Part shown: positions 2,965-19,162 of the stretch, in pieces | Numbering within the stretch: the stretch's first letter is position 1 | Layout of the letters: each line of letters starts with the position of its first letter | From: Candidatus Hydrogenedentota bacterium | GTDB lineage: Bacteria; Hydrogenedentota; Hydrogenedentia; Hydrogenedentales; JAGMZX01 | Assembly: GCA_029556545.1 (NCBI GenBank) | Contig: JAKQEQ010000087.1 | Coordinates: 1 to 19,162 of the forward strand | Length of the DNA: 19,162 nucleotides | Direction of reading: 5' to 3' | Position numbers and translations under genes: made by a program | Notes under the pieces: generated by a model | The model's input: only the letters and a program-made list of their open reading frames with translations | Told to the model about the DNA's origin: nothing | Databases searched by the model: none

Positions 2965-3890
2965 TTCAAGTCCTCGCCGTCGTCGGCCCGACGGCCACGG
3001 GCAAGACCGCGCTCGCCATCGAGTTAGCCAATCGACTCGCTACGGAAATCGTCTCCGCCGACTCCCAGCAGTTTTACCGCGGCATGGAAATCGGCACCGC
3101 CGCGCCCACGCCCGCCGAACGCGCCCGGGTTCCGCACCACTTCGTCTGCTTCCTCGACCCGAGCGAAAGCATGGCCGCCGGCGACTACGAGCGTATCGCG
3201 CGCCCCATTGTTGATCGCCTCAACCGAGCGGGGAAACCCGCCGTTGTCGTGGGCGGTTCGGGACTCTACGTCCAGGCGCTGATCCGAGGACTCTTCGAGG
3301 GCCCCCCGCGAGACCAAGTCATCCGCGATCGGCTCCGCGCCGAAGCGCGCGATCACGGCAATGCCCGCCTCTTCGCGCGGCTGCAAGCGGTGGACCCCGA
3401 GTACGCCGCCATCCTCACGAGCCCCAACGACCTCGTCCGCGTCATACGCGCGCTCGAAGTCCACGAGATCACCGGCAAGCCCATCTCGCAACTACACCGC
3501 GAATTCCGCGAACGCAAACCGCCTCTGCGCGCTTTTCAGGCGGCGCTCGATATGCCCCGCGACGTCCTCTATCAGCGCATCGACCGTCGCGTCGACGTGA
3601 TGATCGCCGCGGGCTGGATCGAGGAAACCCGCGCGCTCGTCGCTGCCGGCCATGCCGCAAACCTCGAACGCCTCAAGAGCCACGGCTACCGCGAACTGAC
3701 CGCCTATCTGCGCGGCGAAATAACCCTCGAAACCGCGCTCGACACCACCCGCCGCAACGTCCGCCACTACGCCAAGCGCCAGATCACCTGGTTCCGCGCC
3801 GACAAAACCGTCCGCTGGCTGCCGGCGACCCCCGAAACACCGGTAAGCGCCCTCGCCGACGAAGTGCTCCGCGAAATGCCCCGTGAATAG
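2961..3890 (+). CDS. miaA: tRNA dimethylallyltransferase MiaA
   Basis: MiaA transfers dimethylallyl from DMAPP to N6 of A37 in tRNAs reading UNN codons, the first step towards ms2i6A. The 309-residue length is normal. The P-loop GPTATGKT is at 9-16, followed by SADSQQFYRGMEIGTAAP, the nucleotide and tRNA-contact region of the family. VVVGGSGLYVQAL, the NDLVRVIRALEV segment and the C-terminal RRNVRHYAKRQITWFR signature are all present. The start is GTG at 2961, overlapping the mutL stop by four bases (GTGA), so translation is probably coupled to mutL. In E. coli mutL-miaA is followed by hfq; here the next gene is on the other strand and hfq is absent. Confidence 0.96.
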   Translation: MIQVLAVVGPTATGKTALAIELANRLATEIVSADSQQFYRGMEIGTAAPTPAERARVPHHFVCFLDPSESMAAGDYERIARPIVDRLNRAGKPAVVVGGSGLYVQALIRGLFEGPPRDQVIRDRLRAEARDHGNARLFARLQAVDPEYAAILTSPNDLVRVIRALEVHEITGKPISQLHREFRERKPPLRAFQAALDMPRDVLYQRIDRRVDVMIAAGWIEETRALVAAGHAANLERLKSHGYRELTAYLRGEITLETALDTTRRNVRHYAKRQITWFRADKTVRWLPATPETPVSALADEVLREMPRE

Positions 3891-3939
3891 GACCTGCCCG
3901 ACGTATACGGCGCGCGCGATCGCTCCCGTTTATCCCTTC

Positions 3940-4011
3940 GATCCGTCCGATCCGTCCGATCCGTCCGATCCGTCCGATCCGTCCGATCAATCCGATCAGT
4001 CCGATCAAAAG
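3940..4011. repeat. 9-bp tandem repeat array, eight units, one GATC per unit
   Basis: Five exact copies of GATCCGTCC (3940-3984) are followed by three diverging copies: GATCAATCC, GATCAGTCC and GATCAAAAG. This gives eight GATC sites at exact 9-bp spacing. The array lies between the stop of miaA (3890) and the convergent gene whose TGA stop (complement of 4005-4007) sits inside the last degenerate unit. The perfect units do not code for part of either gene. Such arrays change length by slippage. Confidence 0.9.
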
Positions 4012-8214: not shown

Positions 8215-8243
8215 TGGAAAAAGGCGCGCGCAAACGGCATAAT
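8215..8243 (+). promoter_or_regulatory. Candidate sigma-70 promoter for the methyltransferase operon
   Basis: TGGAAA (8215-8220, four of six matches to the -35 consensus) and CATAAT (8238-8243, five of six to the -10) are separated by exactly 17 bases. Transcription would start near 8250, about 29 bases before the ATG at 8279. I see no cobalamin or SAM riboswitch elements; the leader would be too short to hold one. Confidence 0.42.
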
Positions 8244-8278: not shown

Positions 8279-9379
8279 ATGCGCAAAACCATGACGAGTC
8301 GCGAACGAATTGGCCGCATTCTGCGGCGGCAGCCCGTCGATCGGATCGGCGTCTTCGAGCATTTCTGGGGCGACACGATCAAGCTCTGGACCGACCAGGG
8401 CCACATCCGCGAAGGGGAAAGCCTCGAAGACCACTTCGGATTCGACTTCATGATGCACTGGCCCTTCAACATGGTGGCCCAACTCGATTTCGAGCCCGTC
8501 GTCGTCGAGGAAACCGAGGAGACGGTCCTTACCCGCGACGGCAACGGCGCGCTCCTCCGGCGGCACAAGCTGCACGACGCCACGCCCGAGCACGTGGACT
8601 TCCTCGTCAAGGACCGCGCCGGATGGGAAGAGCACGTCAAGCCGTTTCTCGCGCCGGACCGGCGCCGCATCGACTTTCAGGGCTACCGCGATCGAAAACG
8701 CCTCGCCGCCGAGAATAACCGATTCTTCTGCTGGGCGGGCGTGAACGTCTTTGAACTGATGCACCCCGTCTGCGGCCACGAATACATGCTCATGGGCATG
8801 GCGATGGACCCGGATTGGGTCAAGGACATGGTCAACACCCTCTGCGGCCTCACCCTCGACCTGATGGACATCCTCTTCGCGGAGGAAGGGCCGCCCGACG
8901 GCATCTGGTTCTATGAGGACATGGGCCTCAAGGGCCGCCCCTTCATGTCCCCCGCCATGTACCGCGAAATCATTCAGCCCGCCCACGCGCGCACCGTGGA
9001 CTACGCCCACGCGCGCGGCATGCCGGTGGTCATGCACTCGTGCGGCTACGTCGCCCCCCTCGTCCCCGGCATGGTCGAGGCGGGTATCGACGCCTTGCAA
9101 GTCATCGAGGTGAAGGCGGGCATGGACCTCGTGCAACTGTTCCGCGACTTCGGGGATCGCCTGTCCTTTATCGGCGGCATCGACGTGCGCACGCTGTACT
9201 CGAACGACCGGGCGGTCATCGACGCGGAACTGGAGAAGAAGATCCCGGTGGTCAAGGGCCGCTACGGATACGTGCTCCACTCGGACCACTCGATCCCGGA
9301 CCAAGTCCGCTACGAGAGCTACCGGTATTTTGTTGACAGAGGAATCGCGTTGGGACATTATATGGGGCCAAACGACTGA
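8279..9379 (+). CDS. UroD-fold methyltransferase-like protein (probable methyl-donor:corrinoid methyltransferase)
   Basis: The 366-residue protein belongs to the uroporphyrinogen decarboxylase/MtaA-CmuA superfamily. Signs are the start TSRERIGRILRRQPVDRIGVFE, DGIWFYEDMGLKGRPFMSPAMYREIIQP (206-234), VVMHSCGYVAPLVPGMVEAGIDALQVIE (250-277) and FIGGIDVRTL. His253 and Cys255 correspond to the HxC pair of the zinc site in CoM methyltransferases. The third zinc Cys of those enzymes is missing: the matching region reads HSDHSIP (334-340). That argues against a thiol methyltransferase and for a donor-side (demethylating) enzyme. True haem UroD is unlikely: the context is a corrinoid protein 15 bases downstream and a homocysteine methyltransferase after it. 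An ATG at 8291 is an alternative start. The methyl donor is unknown; methoxylated aromatics or O-methyl sugars are possibilities by inference only. Confidence 0.85.
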   Translation: MRKTMTSRERIGRILRRQPVDRIGVFEHFWGDTIKLWTDQGHIREGESLEDHFGFDFMMHWPFNMVAQLDFEPVVVEETEETVLTRDGNGALLRRHKLHDATPEHVDFLVKDRAGWEEHVKPFLAPDRRRIDFQGYRDRKRLAAENNRFFCWAGVNVFELMHPVCGHEYMLMGMAMDPDWVKDMVNTLCGLTLDLMDILFAEEGPPDGIWFYEDMGLKGRPFMSPAMYREIIQPAHARTVDYAHARGMPVVMHSCGYVAPLVPGMVEAGIDALQVIEVKAGMDLVQLFRDFGDRLSFIGGIDVRTLYSNDRAVIDAELEKKIPVVKGRYGYVLHSDHSIPDQVRYESYRYFVDRGIALGHYMGPND

Positions 9380-9394
9380 GAGGAGAGCGGAGTC

Positions 9395-10063
9395 ATGTCG
9401 GAACTACTTGCGCAACTGGCCGTGTGCATCGAACGGGGGAAAGTCAACAAGGCGTCGCCATATCCGCCGGACCTGCGCGGTCAGGACGGAGCCGAGGAGT
9501 TGACGAAACAGGCGCTGGACAGCGGCGTGGCCCCCAGCGACATCCTCGAACAGGGACTGATCATCGGCATGGGGACCATCGGACACAAGTTCAGCCGCAA
9601 TGAAGTGTTCGTGCCCGACCTGCTCATGGCCGCCAAGGCCATGTCCTCCGCCATGGTGCAGCTCAAGCCGTTCTTCGAGTCGGGACAGGCCCGGCACAAG
9701 GGCACCATTGTGATTGGCACGGTCAAGGGCGACCTCCACGATATCGGCAAGAAACTGGTCGCCATGGTGCTCGAGGGCGGCGGCTGGAACGTCATCGACC
9801 TCAACGTCGACGTGGCCCCCGAGAAATTCGTCGAGACCCTCAAGCAGCATCCCGGCGCGGCCCTCGGCATGAGCGCGCTCCTCACCACGACCATGGTCAA
9901 CATGGAAGAAACCGTCAAGCGCGTGCGCCAGGAAGCGCCCAGCACGAAGATCATTATCGGCGGCGCGCCGGTGACCGACGAGTTCCGCGCGAAAATCGGC
10001 GCCGACGCCTATTCGCCGGACCCGCAGGGCGCGCTGGACTGGCTCAACGCGCAAGTGGCGTGA
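9395..10063 (+). CDS. Corrinoid (B12-binding) methyltransferase subunit, MtbC/MtaC-like
   Basis: This carries the methyl group on cobalt between two methyltransferases. The 222-residue length is typical. Residues about 1-97 form the four-helix cap domain seen next to B12 modules (IIGMGTIGHKFSRNEVFVPDLLMAAKAM). Residues 102-220 form the Rossmann B12 domain, with the base-off ligand motif GDLHDIG (His115), GMSALLTTTM and the IIIGGAPVT loop. A strong ribosome-binding site (GAGGAG) lies eight bases before the ATG. It is 15 bases downstream of the UroD-type gene, and its stop overlaps the next start (TGATG), so the three genes form one transcription unit with translational coupling. No reductive activator (RamA/RACo type) is encoded in the window. 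Confidence 0.95.
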   Translation: MSELLAQLAVCIERGKVNKASPYPPDLRGQDGAEELTKQALDSGVAPSDILEQGLIIGMGTIGHKFSRNEVFVPDLLMAAKAMSSAMVQLKPFFESGQARHKGTIVIGTVKGDLHDIGKKLVAMVLEGGGWNVIDLNVDVAPEKFVETLKQHPGAALGMSALLTTTMVNMEETVKRVRQEAPSTKIIIGGAPVTDEFRAKIGADAYSPDPQGALDWLNAQVA

Positions 10064-10956
10064 TGAAGCGCATCGTCGACGAGGTCCGGGAAAAAGGCAC
10101 GCTCCTTTCCGACGGCGGGTGGGGCTCCTTCCTCATTGCGAAGGGCCTCAAGACGGGGGAATGCCCCGAGCGCTGGAACCTCGAACGCCGCGATGCCGTG
10201 CTCGAGGCGGCGCGCAGCTACGCCGACTGCGGCTGCGATCTCATCACAACGAACACGTTTGGCGGTAACCGCATCACCCTCGCGAAGCACGGCCTGGCCG
10301 ATCAGGCTGCGGCCATCAACGAGACCGGCGCGGCCATCTCCCGCGAAGCCGTCGGTCCGAACCGGCACGTGAACGCTTCCATCGGCCCCACGGGCGAACT
10401 GCTCATGATGGGCGCGGTCAGCAGAGACCAGATGTACGAGGCGTTCCGAGAACAGGCCGTCGCGCTCGAACGCGGCGGCGCCGACGCCTGCCTCGTCGAG
10501 ACTATGATGGACCTCGAGGAAGCCTGTGTCGCCATTCAGGCGGCCAGGGAAAACACCAAGCTCGAAATCGTCTGCACGATGACCTTCTCGCGCGGCCCCG
10601 ACGGCGCCTATCACACGATGATGGGCGTGACGCCCGAGGCGATGGCCGCACCCGTTCTGGAAGCCGGCGCGCACGTGATCGGCGCGAATTGCACGCTCGG
10701 CCCCGCCGACATGGTGGAACTCGCGCGCGCCCTCCGCGCCGCCGCGCCGGGTGTCCCGGTAATGGTCCAACCCAACGCGGGGCAGCCCGAAGCGGTCGAG
10801 GGCGGCCTCCGTTACCCCGAGACGCCCGAGAGCATGGCGTCCTACGTTCCCGCGTTCGTTGAAGCCGGCGCGAACATCCTCGGCGGTTGCTGCGGCACCG
10901 GCCCCGCGCATATTCTGGCGATCAAGGAAGCCCTGTCGCGAATGCCCCAACGGTAG
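10063..10956 (+). CDS. Homocysteine S-methyltransferase (MetH N-terminal-type domain)
   Basis: The stand-alone zinc-dependent Hcy-binding domain has 297 residues. Zinc ligands of the family are present: Cys210 in GANCT, and Cys276-Cys277 in GGCCGTGP. Other family features are DLITTNTFGGNR, NASIGPTGELL, ACLVETMMDLEEA and VQPNAGQPE. The usual DGAMGT loop near the start reads DGGWGS. The protein has no pterin or B12 domain. With the corrinoid protein upstream it would supply the acceptor side: methyl-cobalt to homocysteine, giving methionine. The start is taken at ATG 10063, overlapping the stop of the corrinoid gene by one base; GTG at 10060 is possible. An acceptor other than homocysteine cannot be excluded. 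Confidence 0.9.
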   Translation: MKRIVDEVREKGTLLSDGGWGSFLIAKGLKTGECPERWNLERRDAVLEAARSYADCGCDLITTNTFGGNRITLAKHGLADQAAAINETGAAISREAVGPNRHVNASIGPTGELLMMGAVSRDQMYEAFREQAVALERGGADACLVETMMDLEEACVAIQAARENTKLEIVCTMTFSRGPDGAYHTMMGVTPEAMAAPVLEAGAHVIGANCTLGPADMVELARALRAAAPGVPVMVQPNAGQPEAVEGGLRYPETPESMASYVPAFVEAGANILGGCCGTGPAHILAIKEALSRMPQR

Positions 10957-11035: not shown

Positions 11036-12403
11036 ATGCCAGATAAGGATCTCTTGTTCGCCGCCTTGAGGCGCGAAAGCACGCCACGCCCGCCGTGGGT
11101 CCCCTTCGTCGGGGTACACGGCGGCTGTCTGATCGGCGTCAGCGCCCCCGAGTACCTGCGTTCGAGCCAGCGAATCGTCCAAGGACTGCGCCGCGCCCAT
11201 GAACTGTATCGGCCCGACGGTCTTCCCGTGATATTCGACCTCCAGATGGAGGCGGAAGTCCTCGGCTGCGAACTGCGCTGGGCCGAGGAAGTACCGCCGT
11301 CCGTCGCGTCGCATCCCCTGATCGCGGGCGGTCTGGGCGACCTGCCGCCCTTCGATACAGGCGCGGGCCGGTTTCCCGTGGCGGCGGCGGTGCTTCGCGA
11401 ATTGAAGAAGGACGTCGGCCACAAGACGGCTTTGTATGGACTGATCACCGGTCCGTTCACACTTACGGCGCACCTCCGAGGACACGAACTTTTTCTCGAC
11501 ATGATCATGCACCCCGAGCAGGTGCATGAGACCATGAACTATTGCGCGTCCATCGCCTGCGCGACCGCCCGGTTCTATCGCGAGCACGGCGCGGACGTCG
11601 TTGCCATCGTCGATCCCATGACAAGCCAGATATCTCCGGAGCATTTCCGAGAATTCGTGGCGCCGTATGTGAACCGTGTCTTCGACTGCGTCCGCGACCT
11701 AGGCGCGTTCTCGTCGCTTTTCGTCTGCGGCGACGCGACGCGCAACCTCGAAGCTATGTGCCGGACCACCTGCGACAACCTTCAGATAGACGAGAACATC
11801 TCCCTGCCCGAATTGCGCTCGCTCGCGCAACAAAACAACAAGTCTTTCGGCGGAAACATGCGCCTCACGACCGTCCTGCTCTTGGGCACGGAAAACGATG
11901 CGAAACTCGACGCCATTCGATGCATAGACCAGGGCGGAGACACCGGCTTCGTGCTCGCCCCGGGCTGCGACCTGCCTTACGGAACGCCGCCGGCAAACCT
12001 GATCGCGGTCGCGCAGATGGTTCACGACGAATACCAGCGCGACGTCGCCCGCACGCTGACCGCGTCGAGTCTCGACCGCTTCGACGACATCACGCTGCCC
12101 GACTACGACGCGCTGGATGCCGTGACACTCGACGTGGTGACCCTCGATTCCGCGGCATGTCCTCCCTGTCTCTACATGGTGCAGGCCGTGCGCGGCGCCA
12201 TCGAGAAAGTCGCCGTTGACGTCGTGTTCCGCGAGCACAAAATCCGACATCGGGACGGCATCGGCCACATGTTGCGCCTCGGCGTGCGCCATATCCCGAC
12301 CATCTGCATCGACGGCAAGCCAACCTACGAATCCGTTATTCCGGACGTGGAAACGCTCGCGCGCGCCATCGAGGCGCGCCACCGGGAGAAACGAGGGCAA
12401 TGA
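11036..12403 (+). CDS. UroD-fold methyltransferase-like protein fused to a C-terminal thioredoxin-like domain
   Basis: The 455-residue protein has two parts. Residues 1 to about 340 are UroD/MtaA-like: ELYRPDGLPVIFDLQMEAEVLGCE, TALYGLITGPFTLTAHLRG, DPMTSQISPEHFREFVAPY, LFVCGDATRNLEAM and GFVLAPGCDLPYGTPPANL. It keeps the two Cys positions of the methyltransferase zinc site (Cys231, Cys311), but the His two residues before the first Cys is Phe229. Residues about 366-450 are thioredoxin-like, with CPPC at 375-378 and the cis-Pro loop HIPTICIDGKP (Pro421). The fusion suggests thiol redox control of its own Cys site, or delivery of electrons or a thiol to a corrinoid or zinc partner; this is inference. 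A single continuous frame covers both parts. It overlaps the CobW-type gene by four bases. Confidence 0.86.
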   Translation: MPDKDLLFAALRRESTPRPPWVPFVGVHGGCLIGVSAPEYLRSSQRIVQGLRRAHELYRPDGLPVIFDLQMEAEVLGCELRWAEEVPPSVASHPLIAGGLGDLPPFDTGAGRFPVAAAVLRELKKDVGHKTALYGLITGPFTLTAHLRGHELFLDMIMHPEQVHETMNYCASIACATARFYREHGADVVAIVDPMTSQISPEHFREFVAPYVNRVFDCVRDLGAFSSLFVCGDATRNLEAMCRTTCDNLQIDENISLPELRSLAQQNNKSFGGNMRLTTVLLLGTENDAKLDAIRCIDQGGDTGFVLAPGCDLPYGTPPANLIAVAQMVHDEYQRDVARTLTASSLDRFDDITLPDYDALDAVTLDVVTLDSAACPPCLYMVQAVRGAIEKVAVDVVFREHKIRHRDGIGHMLRLGVRHIPTICIDGKPTYESVIPDVETLARAIEARHREKRGQ

Positions 12404-13323
12404 TTCCGCTCGCCCTGGTTACCGGCTTTCTCGGCAGCGGCAAGACCACGCTGTTGCGCCGCCTTGTCGACCGGTATCGCGACCGTAGAGTGGCGTACCT
12501 CGTGAACGAATTCTCCCATGTCGACGTCGACGGACGCCGCCTCGCGGAGACCGCCGAGAACGTCCAGATTCTACCGGGGGGCAGTATCTTCTGCTCCTGC
12601 CTCGTCCACGAGTTCATCGGGACTCTGGACGCGTTTCCCAAACGCATGGCGGGCCCCCTGGACGGCGTTGTCATTGAGGCCAGCGGCGTGGCTAGTCCCG
12701 CCGTCATCAGCAAACTACTCCACGATACACGGCTGGACCAGGTTTATGCGCTGAATGCGGTCGTCAGCATCGTCGATCCCGGCTCGTTCCCCGTGCTGCT
12801 GCAATCCCTGCCGAATATCGCGACGCAGGTCGCGGCGAGCACATTGATACTCGTCAACAAGCGCGATCTCTACGACGCGGCGACCGTCGCCGCGGCGGAA
12901 GCGCAGGCCCGCGCCATCAACAATAACGCGCCCATCGTCCGTACATGCCATTGCGAGATTGACGCGGACATCCTTGCGCCCGCGCTTGCGTGTCCTGCGT
13001 GCGCGGGGTCCCTGGCCCCCTGCCGCGATCCCAACTACGCGCAATTCGATCTCGCGCTCGCGCGTCCCGTCGATTTGCCGCGCTTCGAACAAGCCGTCCG
13101 CGACGCCGGCCCCGAACTTTACCGCATGAAGGGCCACGTTCCCACGACATCGGGGCTGGCGTACGTCGATTACACAGCCGGGCAATTCTCGACCGAAGCC
13201 TCAGCCGCGAAGCAAGCGGCGCCCGAACTCGTGTTCATCGCGAACGGTCACGATCACAAGAAGGTCGATGCGCTCATCGAGGCCCTGAAACAGGGCCAAT
13301 TCAATATCGGAAAGACCAAGTAA
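12400..13323 (+). CDS. COG0523/CobW-family G3E GTPase (metallochaperone-like) with Cys-rich segment
   Basis: G3E GTPases insert metals into enzymes. The 307-residue protein has Walker A GFLGSGKTT (9-17), the metal motif GGSIFCSCL (Cys65, Cys67; a CxC in place of the usual CxCC), IEASGVASP (switch II/Walker B region, 92-100), VDPG and the guanine-specificity motif NKRD (153-156). The C-terminal domain (about 215-307) has the CobW_C shape. Between the two lies a segment with five Cys and one His: CHC (183-185), CPAC (198-201) and Cys208. This looks like an extra metal site and replaces the His-rich loops often seen in the family. The start overlaps the previous stop by four bases (ATGA), so it is coupled to the UroD-thioredoxin gene. 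A role in loading zinc or cobalt/corrinoid into the neighbouring methyltransferases is inference from context. Confidence 0.9.
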   Translation: MIPLALVTGFLGSGKTTLLRRLVDRYRDRRVAYLVNEFSHVDVDGRRLAETAENVQILPGGSIFCSCLVHEFIGTLDAFPKRMAGPLDGVVIEASGVASPAVISKLLHDTRLDQVYALNAVVSIVDPGSFPVLLQSLPNIATQVAASTLILVNKRDLYDAATVAAAEAQARAINNNAPIVRTCHCEIDADILAPALACPACAGSLAPCRDPNYAQFDLALARPVDLPRFEQAVRDAGPELYRMKGHVPTTSGLAYVDYTAGQFSTEASAAKQAAPELVFIANGHDHKKVDALIEALKQGQFNIGKTK

Positions 13324-18954: not shown

Positions 18955-19081
18955 AGGGCAATCGCACTAAGAAGTACGAGCATTCCGCTTCCATGCGCAT
19001 AACTACTCCGGCACATATGCGAACTCGACGTGTGGGTGTCTTGCCCTAGGTCCGCGTCGCGCGCTGGAGTTCCCGCATTTA

Positions 19082-19162
19082 GGGCCGAAGGCCCATGACA
19101 TAGTAGCCCAGGGCAACGCCCTGGGAAAATGTGCGCGCCTCAATGTGAAGCCCTGCAAGGGC
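19082..19162. repeat. Cluster of three perfect hairpins (REP-like palindromic element)
   Basis: Three hairpins with three-base loops follow one another: GGGCC-GAA-GGCCC (19082-19094), CCCAGGGC-AAC-GCCCTGGG (19107-19125) and GCCCT-GCA-AGGGC (19150-19162). The last is cut off by, or ends exactly at, the window edge. All are built on GGGC/GCCC, as in dispersed extragenic palindromic repeats. No transposase gene is visible. Confidence 0.65.

Follow-up and report, generated by a model that had tools for sequence, protein, structure and literature searches.

A UroD-family protein, a stand-alone corrinoid protein and a homocysteine methyltransferase as a possible folate-free route to methionine in Hydrogenedentota

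Three adjacent genes in a genome of the little-studied phylum Candidatus Hydrogenedentota (GCA_029556545.1, contig JAKQEQ010000087.1) raise the question of whether a methyl group can be passed from a donor to cobalt and on to homocysteine, giving methionine without methyl-folate, as an earlier note on this DNA had proposed. The window, i.e., the whole stretch of DNA analysed, comprises 19,162 nucleotides. Gene calls and Pfam matches confirmed the trio of a UroD-fold protein, a corrinoid protein and a homocysteine methyltransferase at positions 8279–10956, and the features of the locus were as follows.

8215..8243, plus strand: possible promoter upstream of the module (TGGAAA-17-CATAAT, 9/12; a consensus match only)
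8279..9379, plus strand: UroD1, a UroD-fold putative MT1 methyltransferase of 366 aa (Pfam URO-D, 61 bits)
9395..10063, plus strand: stand-alone corrinoid (B12-binding) protein of 222 aa, MtgC/MtbC-like (PF02310, PF02607)
10060..10956, plus strand: stand-alone homocysteine S-methyltransferase (Hcy-MT), resembling the N-terminal part of MetH (PF02574, 223 bits)
11036..12403, plus strand: MtaA/CmuA-like UroD protein fused to a thioredoxin domain (MtaA-Trx; URO-D 200 bits, TIGR01463 160 bits)
12400..13323, plus strand: CobW/COG0523 GTPase, a probable metal or cobalamin chaperone (cobW 121 bits, CobW_C 37 bits)

The gap of 15 bases between the UroD1 and corrinoid genes was as previously described, whereas the one-base overlap between the corrinoid and Hcy-MT genes holds only with an ATG start at 10063; with the GTG start at 10060 it is 4 bases. 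The description of a module of three genes only was not borne out, as the genes at 11036–12403 and 12400–13323 continue on the same strand. MtaA-Trx follows Hcy-MT after 79 bases and overlaps the CobW gene by 4 bases, and the operon likely extends into both. No riboswitch was detected in the window or in 20 related loci, nor did any other regulatory feature connect the module with methionine. Elsewhere in the window, an Acido-Lenti-1 RNA (RF01687) scored above the gathering threshold at 19081–19125 on the minus strand, and a 9-base tandem repeat (CGATCCGTC, 7.6 copies) occupied positions 3939–4006, just 3′ of a gene ending at 3890.

The corrinoid protein and Hcy-MT both carried the residues expected of a methyl relay. 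The corrinoid protein combined a MetH-type B12 cap with a B12-binding domain (B12-binding_2, 62 bits; B12-binding, 89 bits), and its proposed cobalt ligand, His115, lies within D-L-H-D-I-G (DxHxxG) and was invariant in 27 sequences. Its best NCBIfam match, MtgC_2, reached 193 bits against a cut-off of 370, and by this model it is a relative rather than a member of MtgC. The three zinc cysteines previously noticed in Hcy-MT (Cys211, Cys277 and Cys278) were likewise invariant, in 34 sequences, and the best solved relative was the MetH of T. maritima (1q7m, E 2.7e-46). Hcy-MT scored 162 bits against this MetH homocysteine domain, 63 against BHMT and 38 against the S-methylmethionine enzyme HMT (5dml), which makes an enzyme working only with S-methylmethionine or AdoMet unlikely. 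The NCBIfam matches were PRK07534 ‘bmt’ (233 bits, below the cut-off of 338) and PRK09485 HMT (78 bits, below 215). In a tree, Hcy-MT belonged to a well supported clade (100/99) comprising 37 stand-alone proteins from the order. This clade lay far from the homocysteine domain of MetH, although the latter sits on a long branch, and an origin of Hcy-MT as a detached piece of MetH was not supported.

UroD1 was assigned to the UroD/MtaA TIM-barrel fold by model comparison. Its predicted model (pLDDT 91) matched uroporphyrinogen decarboxylase (1r3y; Z 28.1 over 313 residues) and MtaA (4ay8; Z 26.4 over 311 residues) at 11%–17% identity, and a profile search with UroD1 found no solved structure close to it by sequence. 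Membership of the MtaA/CmuA family was not supported (TIGR01463, 35 bits against a cut-off of 235). The earlier observation that the protein keeps H-x-C and lacks the third zinc cysteine was upheld in 22 aligned sequences, in which His253 and Cys255 were invariant and S335-D336-H337 nearly so. When the profiles of UroD1 and the MtaA-thioredoxin family were aligned, H337, rather than a gap, fell opposite the third zinc cysteine of MtaA-type enzymes, a placement that is weak (hhalign probability 72%). According to a preprint, S-methyltransferases of the UroD superfamily use His-Cys-Cys and O-methyltransferases have other residues there (PMC10418091). With a ligand other than cysteine in the third position, this rule makes it more likely that UroD1 is a donor-side enzyme acting on a non-thiol compound. 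The source genome contains 19 URO-D family loci, most of which score too low for uroporphyrinogen decarboxylase; this sizeable group is uncharacterised and may comprise corrinoid methyltransferases.

The gene order was conserved beyond the source genome. UroD1 orthologues were detected in the order (29 among 68 genomes) at 63%–77% identity; the value then fell abruptly, to 39% for the next paralogue. A corrinoid gene lay beside UroD1 in 24 of the 30 loci of the order, across several families, and Hcy-MT in 12. Six loci had no adjoining corrinoid gene. In four loci of a single family (L077, L078, L079 and L081 in G008, G018, G010 and G009, respectively), UroD1 stood beside hisC, hisD, murA and secG, and none of these had a corrinoid gene next to it. 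A second UroD protein, UroD2 (ca. 27% identical to UroD1), often preceded UroD1. The methanol:corrinoid methyltransferase MtaB, called by NF040651 (E 1e-124, although the score stayed under the equivalog cut-off), was present in six UroD1 clusters of the order. In these six, its gene directly followed Hcy-MT in L064, L066, L070 and L073, and followed a corrinoid gene in the absence of Hcy-MT in L059 and L060. The latter arrangement suggests that Hcy-MT may not be the only acceptor-side partner of the corrinoid protein. MtaB also directly followed Hcy-MT in L120 and L125, two loci without UroD1.

A survey of the loci around stand-alone Hcy-MT genes showed that the pairing of corrinoid and Hcy-MT genes is not restricted to UroD1 clusters. 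Without UroD1, the corrinoid/Hcy-MT pair was accompanied by MtaB (L120, L125), by a RACo-type activase (L107, L108) or by a protein resembling the MetH activation domain (L120, L126, L139). A small stand-alone protein of this last type (PF02965-like) was found in the module in L053, L064, L066, L113, L126 and L139. In Anaerolinea thermolimosa (L267), the Hcy-MT, RACo and corrinoid genes were consecutive and uninterrupted. RACo also directly adjoined stand-alone Hcy-MT genes in Hydrogenedentota lacking UroD1 (L107–L109), and many relatives carried a stand-alone Hcy-MT without a corrinoid neighbour. Judged from these neighbourhoods, the corrinoid protein with Hcy-MT is the more general unit, around which the genes vary (UroD1/UroD2, MtaB, the activation-domain protein, RACo) and the donor genes are interchangeable among relatives. 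B12 reactivators and methyl-donor enzymes are the expected company of a B12-dependent methionine synthase with a variable donor side, and the presence of MtaB in such clusters makes methanol a concrete candidate donor in some relatives.

The two downstream genes also recurred with corrinoid genes. MtaA-Trx has FxC..C instead of HxC..C, the zinc histidine being replaced by phenylalanine, and additionally the CxxC of thioredoxin. Its orthologues adjoined corrinoid or Hcy-MT genes in other genomes, including corrinoid genes without Hcy-MT in Clostridia, Spirochaetes and Lentisphaerota-type genomes. MtaA-Trx adjoins corrinoid genes in Caldicoprobacter oshimai and elsewhere too, which suggests that the corrinoid protein may pass its methyl group to more than a single acceptor. 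The CobW gene also followed MtaA-Trx in G042 and lay beside a corrinoid gene in Caldicoprobacter. In several phyla, MtaA-Trx (L072, L143, L263, L265, L280, L294) was often found beside both CobW and stand-alone corrinoid genes. A selenocysteine considered for the thioredoxin domain of the Caldicoprobacter protein was rejected, as the stop is the terminal one.

Outside the order, UroD1 occurred in Chloroflexi, Clostridia, Armatimonadota, Spirochaetes, Lentisphaeria, Planctomycetes and other groups (64%–75% identity), where neither a corrinoid gene nor Hcy-MT adjoined it. No common neighbour emerged there, the commonest being URO-D (8 of 86 neighbours). Among the 42 UroD1-bearing genomes of other phyla, the only ones considered in this count, 38 encoded a stand-alone corrinoid protein of the module type elsewhere. 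By these gene neighbourhoods, UroD1 is not tied to the corrinoid/Hcy-MT module. Across L147–L226, the family was 64%–77% conserved over many anaerobic phyla, conserved neighbours were mostly absent, and the immediate neighbours included assorted carbohydrate-metabolism genes.

The source genome encodes a complete full-length MetH, and MetE was not found in it. The module is thus not its sole methionine synthase and not obviously needed for methionine, and a role in replacing a missing MetH, for which a search had been suggested, was rejected. The proposed search for a RamA/RACo-type activator returned one RACo activase. The PF02965 activation domain occurred only inside MetH, with none attached to or near the module. 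The part that binds methyl-folate (PF00809) is absent from the module, and no stand-alone PF00809 protein was found in the source genome, where this domain occurred only in FolP and MetH. Most module-bearing relatives checked had no such stand-alone protein either. A further pterin-binding protein or fragment was present in G043, G045, G058, G059, G061, G003 and G041, in which a link to folate is possible. Seven genomes of the order had no detected MetH activation domain, and six of them carried UroD1 (Fisher p 0.04), an enrichment that is only suggestive, since the test ignores phylogeny and completeness and several of the seven genomes are incomplete and related. In one genome, G043 (95% complete, 7% contaminated), both MetH and MetE were undetected. 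It carried UroD1, the corrinoid gene and Hcy-MT, but its genes also included one for a pterin-binding protein and one for an Hcy-MT of bifunctional length.

The closest known systems place the module in context. It resembles MetH in its homocysteine, B12 cap and B12-binding domains and, in some relatives, in the activation-domain-like protein, but consists of separate proteins, has no folate-binding part and contains an Hcy-MT that branches apart from the MetH domain. As in the methanol:CoM system MtaABC of methanogens, MtaB and an MtaC-like corrinoid protein occur in some relatives, and an MtaA-like protein in the source operon; here, however, the neighbouring gene on the acceptor side encodes a homocysteine methyltransferase, the MtaA-like protein carries a thioredoxin domain and has no zinc histidine, and no CoM system is evident. 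In UroD-family demethylase systems of acetogens, the second methyltransferase passes the methyl group to tetrahydrofolate, whereas the acceptor here would be homocysteine. The combination of a UroD-fold MT1 with a corrinoid protein is shared with such demethylases (aromatic O-demethylases; chloromethane CdmBCA, PMC13222342). Folate-independent methionine formation is known from Core-MetE and MesA–D, most families of which use methyl-corrinoid (PMC7857596); these have the MetE C-terminal fold, and the module instead uses a MetH-type (PF02574) homocysteine enzyme. The earlier remark that corrinoid demethylases usually pass the methyl group to folate or CoM overlooks a precedent from 2025: in Ruegeria pomeroyi, a single corrinoid protein (MtgC) takes part both in the demethylation of glycine betaine and, together with MtgD and MtgE, in the synthesis of methionine (PMC12478193). 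In Phaeobacter inhibens, methionine synthase consists of three parts and is accompanied by a RamA-like activase (PMC5764234). The likeness to these two systems covers the stand-alone MtgC-like corrinoid protein, the stand-alone MetH-like, BHMT-annotated Hcy-MT (MtgE there), a separate donor methyltransferase and RamA/RACo-type reactivation. Unlike MtgBCDE, in which the donor enzyme is of the MttB family (PF06253) and the pterin-binding MtgD is essential, the gene at the donor position here is URO-D, or MtaB in relatives, and a stand-alone pterin protein was not detected in the source genome. Given this close precedent of a corrinoid hub for demethylation and methionine synthesis, the module is not wholly new. 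In the open-access literature searched, no publication was found that describes such a gene set in Hydrogenedentota or the transfer of methyl groups from methanol to homocysteine.

In the mechanism that we propose, a donor-side enzyme would methylate the stand-alone corrinoid protein at its Co(I); the candidate in the source genome is UroD1, which might act on a methylated, probably O-methyl, compound. Hcy-MT would then pass the methyl group to zinc-bound homocysteine to give methionine. Co(II) formed in side reactions would be rescued by the RACo-type activase of the genome or, in some relatives, by the separate PF02965-like protein. MtaA-Trx and CobW would have accessory roles, the former perhaps in methyl transfer to a second acceptor, a thiol, and the latter perhaps in supplying cofactor or metal. 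The route from donor through cobalt to homocysteine without methyl-folate is supported in part, by the recurrent pairing of the corrinoid protein and Hcy-MT, by neighbours that are donor enzymes or reactivators and by the lack of a stand-alone pterin protein; against it stand the presence of MetH, the loose association of UroD1, the stand-alone Hcy-MT genes that lack a corrinoid neighbour, the MtaB–corrinoid clusters without Hcy-MT and the failure to find a regulatory tie to methionine. That the corrinoid protein and Hcy-MT form methionine is quite probable. Methylation of this corrinoid protein by UroD1 seems fairly probable, and both together, as a modular folate-free methionine-forming system, appear to have slightly better than even chances.

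The Ruegeria precedent itself (PMC12478193) gives rise to a competing explanation, in which the corrinoid protein is mainly a hub for catabolic demethylation and Hcy-MT is one outlet among several, another being MtaA-Trx, acting on a thiol, or a distinct pterin-binding protein in those relatives that encode one. The presence of MtaA-Trx in the source operon, its orthologues beside corrinoid genes without Hcy-MT in the three groups mentioned above, MtaB next to such corrinoid genes in L059 and L060 and the stand-alone pterin proteins in G043, G045, G059, G061, G003 and G041 are all consistent with a hub. We nevertheless regard it as a real but minority possibility, as a stand-alone pterin-binding protein is absent from the source genome and from most complete module-bearing relatives, and MtaA-Trx lacks its zinc histidine.

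The remaining alternatives concern UroD1. It might be functionally unrelated and merely co-transcribed, with the corrinoid/Hcy-MT pair fed by an enzyme encoded elsewhere. Strong conservation across phyla without a shared neighbour, the many UroD-family loci of the source genome and the lack of a solved relative by sequence would fit this explanation, which is unlikely in view of the linkage to a corrinoid gene at 24 of 30 loci in several families of the order and the co-occurrence with a stand-alone corrinoid protein in 38 of the 42 UroD1-bearing genomes outside it. It is very unlikely that UroD1 is an acceptor-side enzyme methylating a thiol, with Hcy-MT acting independently of it. MtaA-type thiol methyltransferases do belong to the UroD superfamily, and His-x-Cys is kept; however, the third ligand is His or Asp instead of Cys, which the ligand rule ties to O- rather than S-substrates (PMC10418091), and the score for the MtaA-like family is far below the cut-off.

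Returning to the folate-free route, a broader version can be put forward tentatively, at somewhat less than even chances: a plug-in methionine synthase with a fixed core of corrinoid protein and MetH-type enzyme and swappable donor enzymes, with MtaB acting on methanol and UroD1/UroD2 on O-methyl compounds that might be methylated sugars, in Hydrogenedentota and perhaps in many other anaerobic phyla. If so, these bacteria would make methionine, and hence AdoMet, straight from environmental methyl groups without folate, and UroD1 would represent a new and very widespread demethylase family. The folate-free route itself, if true, would change the genome-based prediction of methionine synthesis, as illustrated by the near-complete G043 without detectable MetH and MetE, and would open an outlet to homocysteine for MtaB-type methanol metabolism. 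It would also suggest a first function that can be tested for UroD1, which is strongly conserved in many anaerobic phyla and has cultured carriers in Caldicoprobacter oshimai and Anaerolinea thermolimosa. The methyl groups of methanol and other methylated compounds would then enter methionine and AdoMet directly, bypassing folate.
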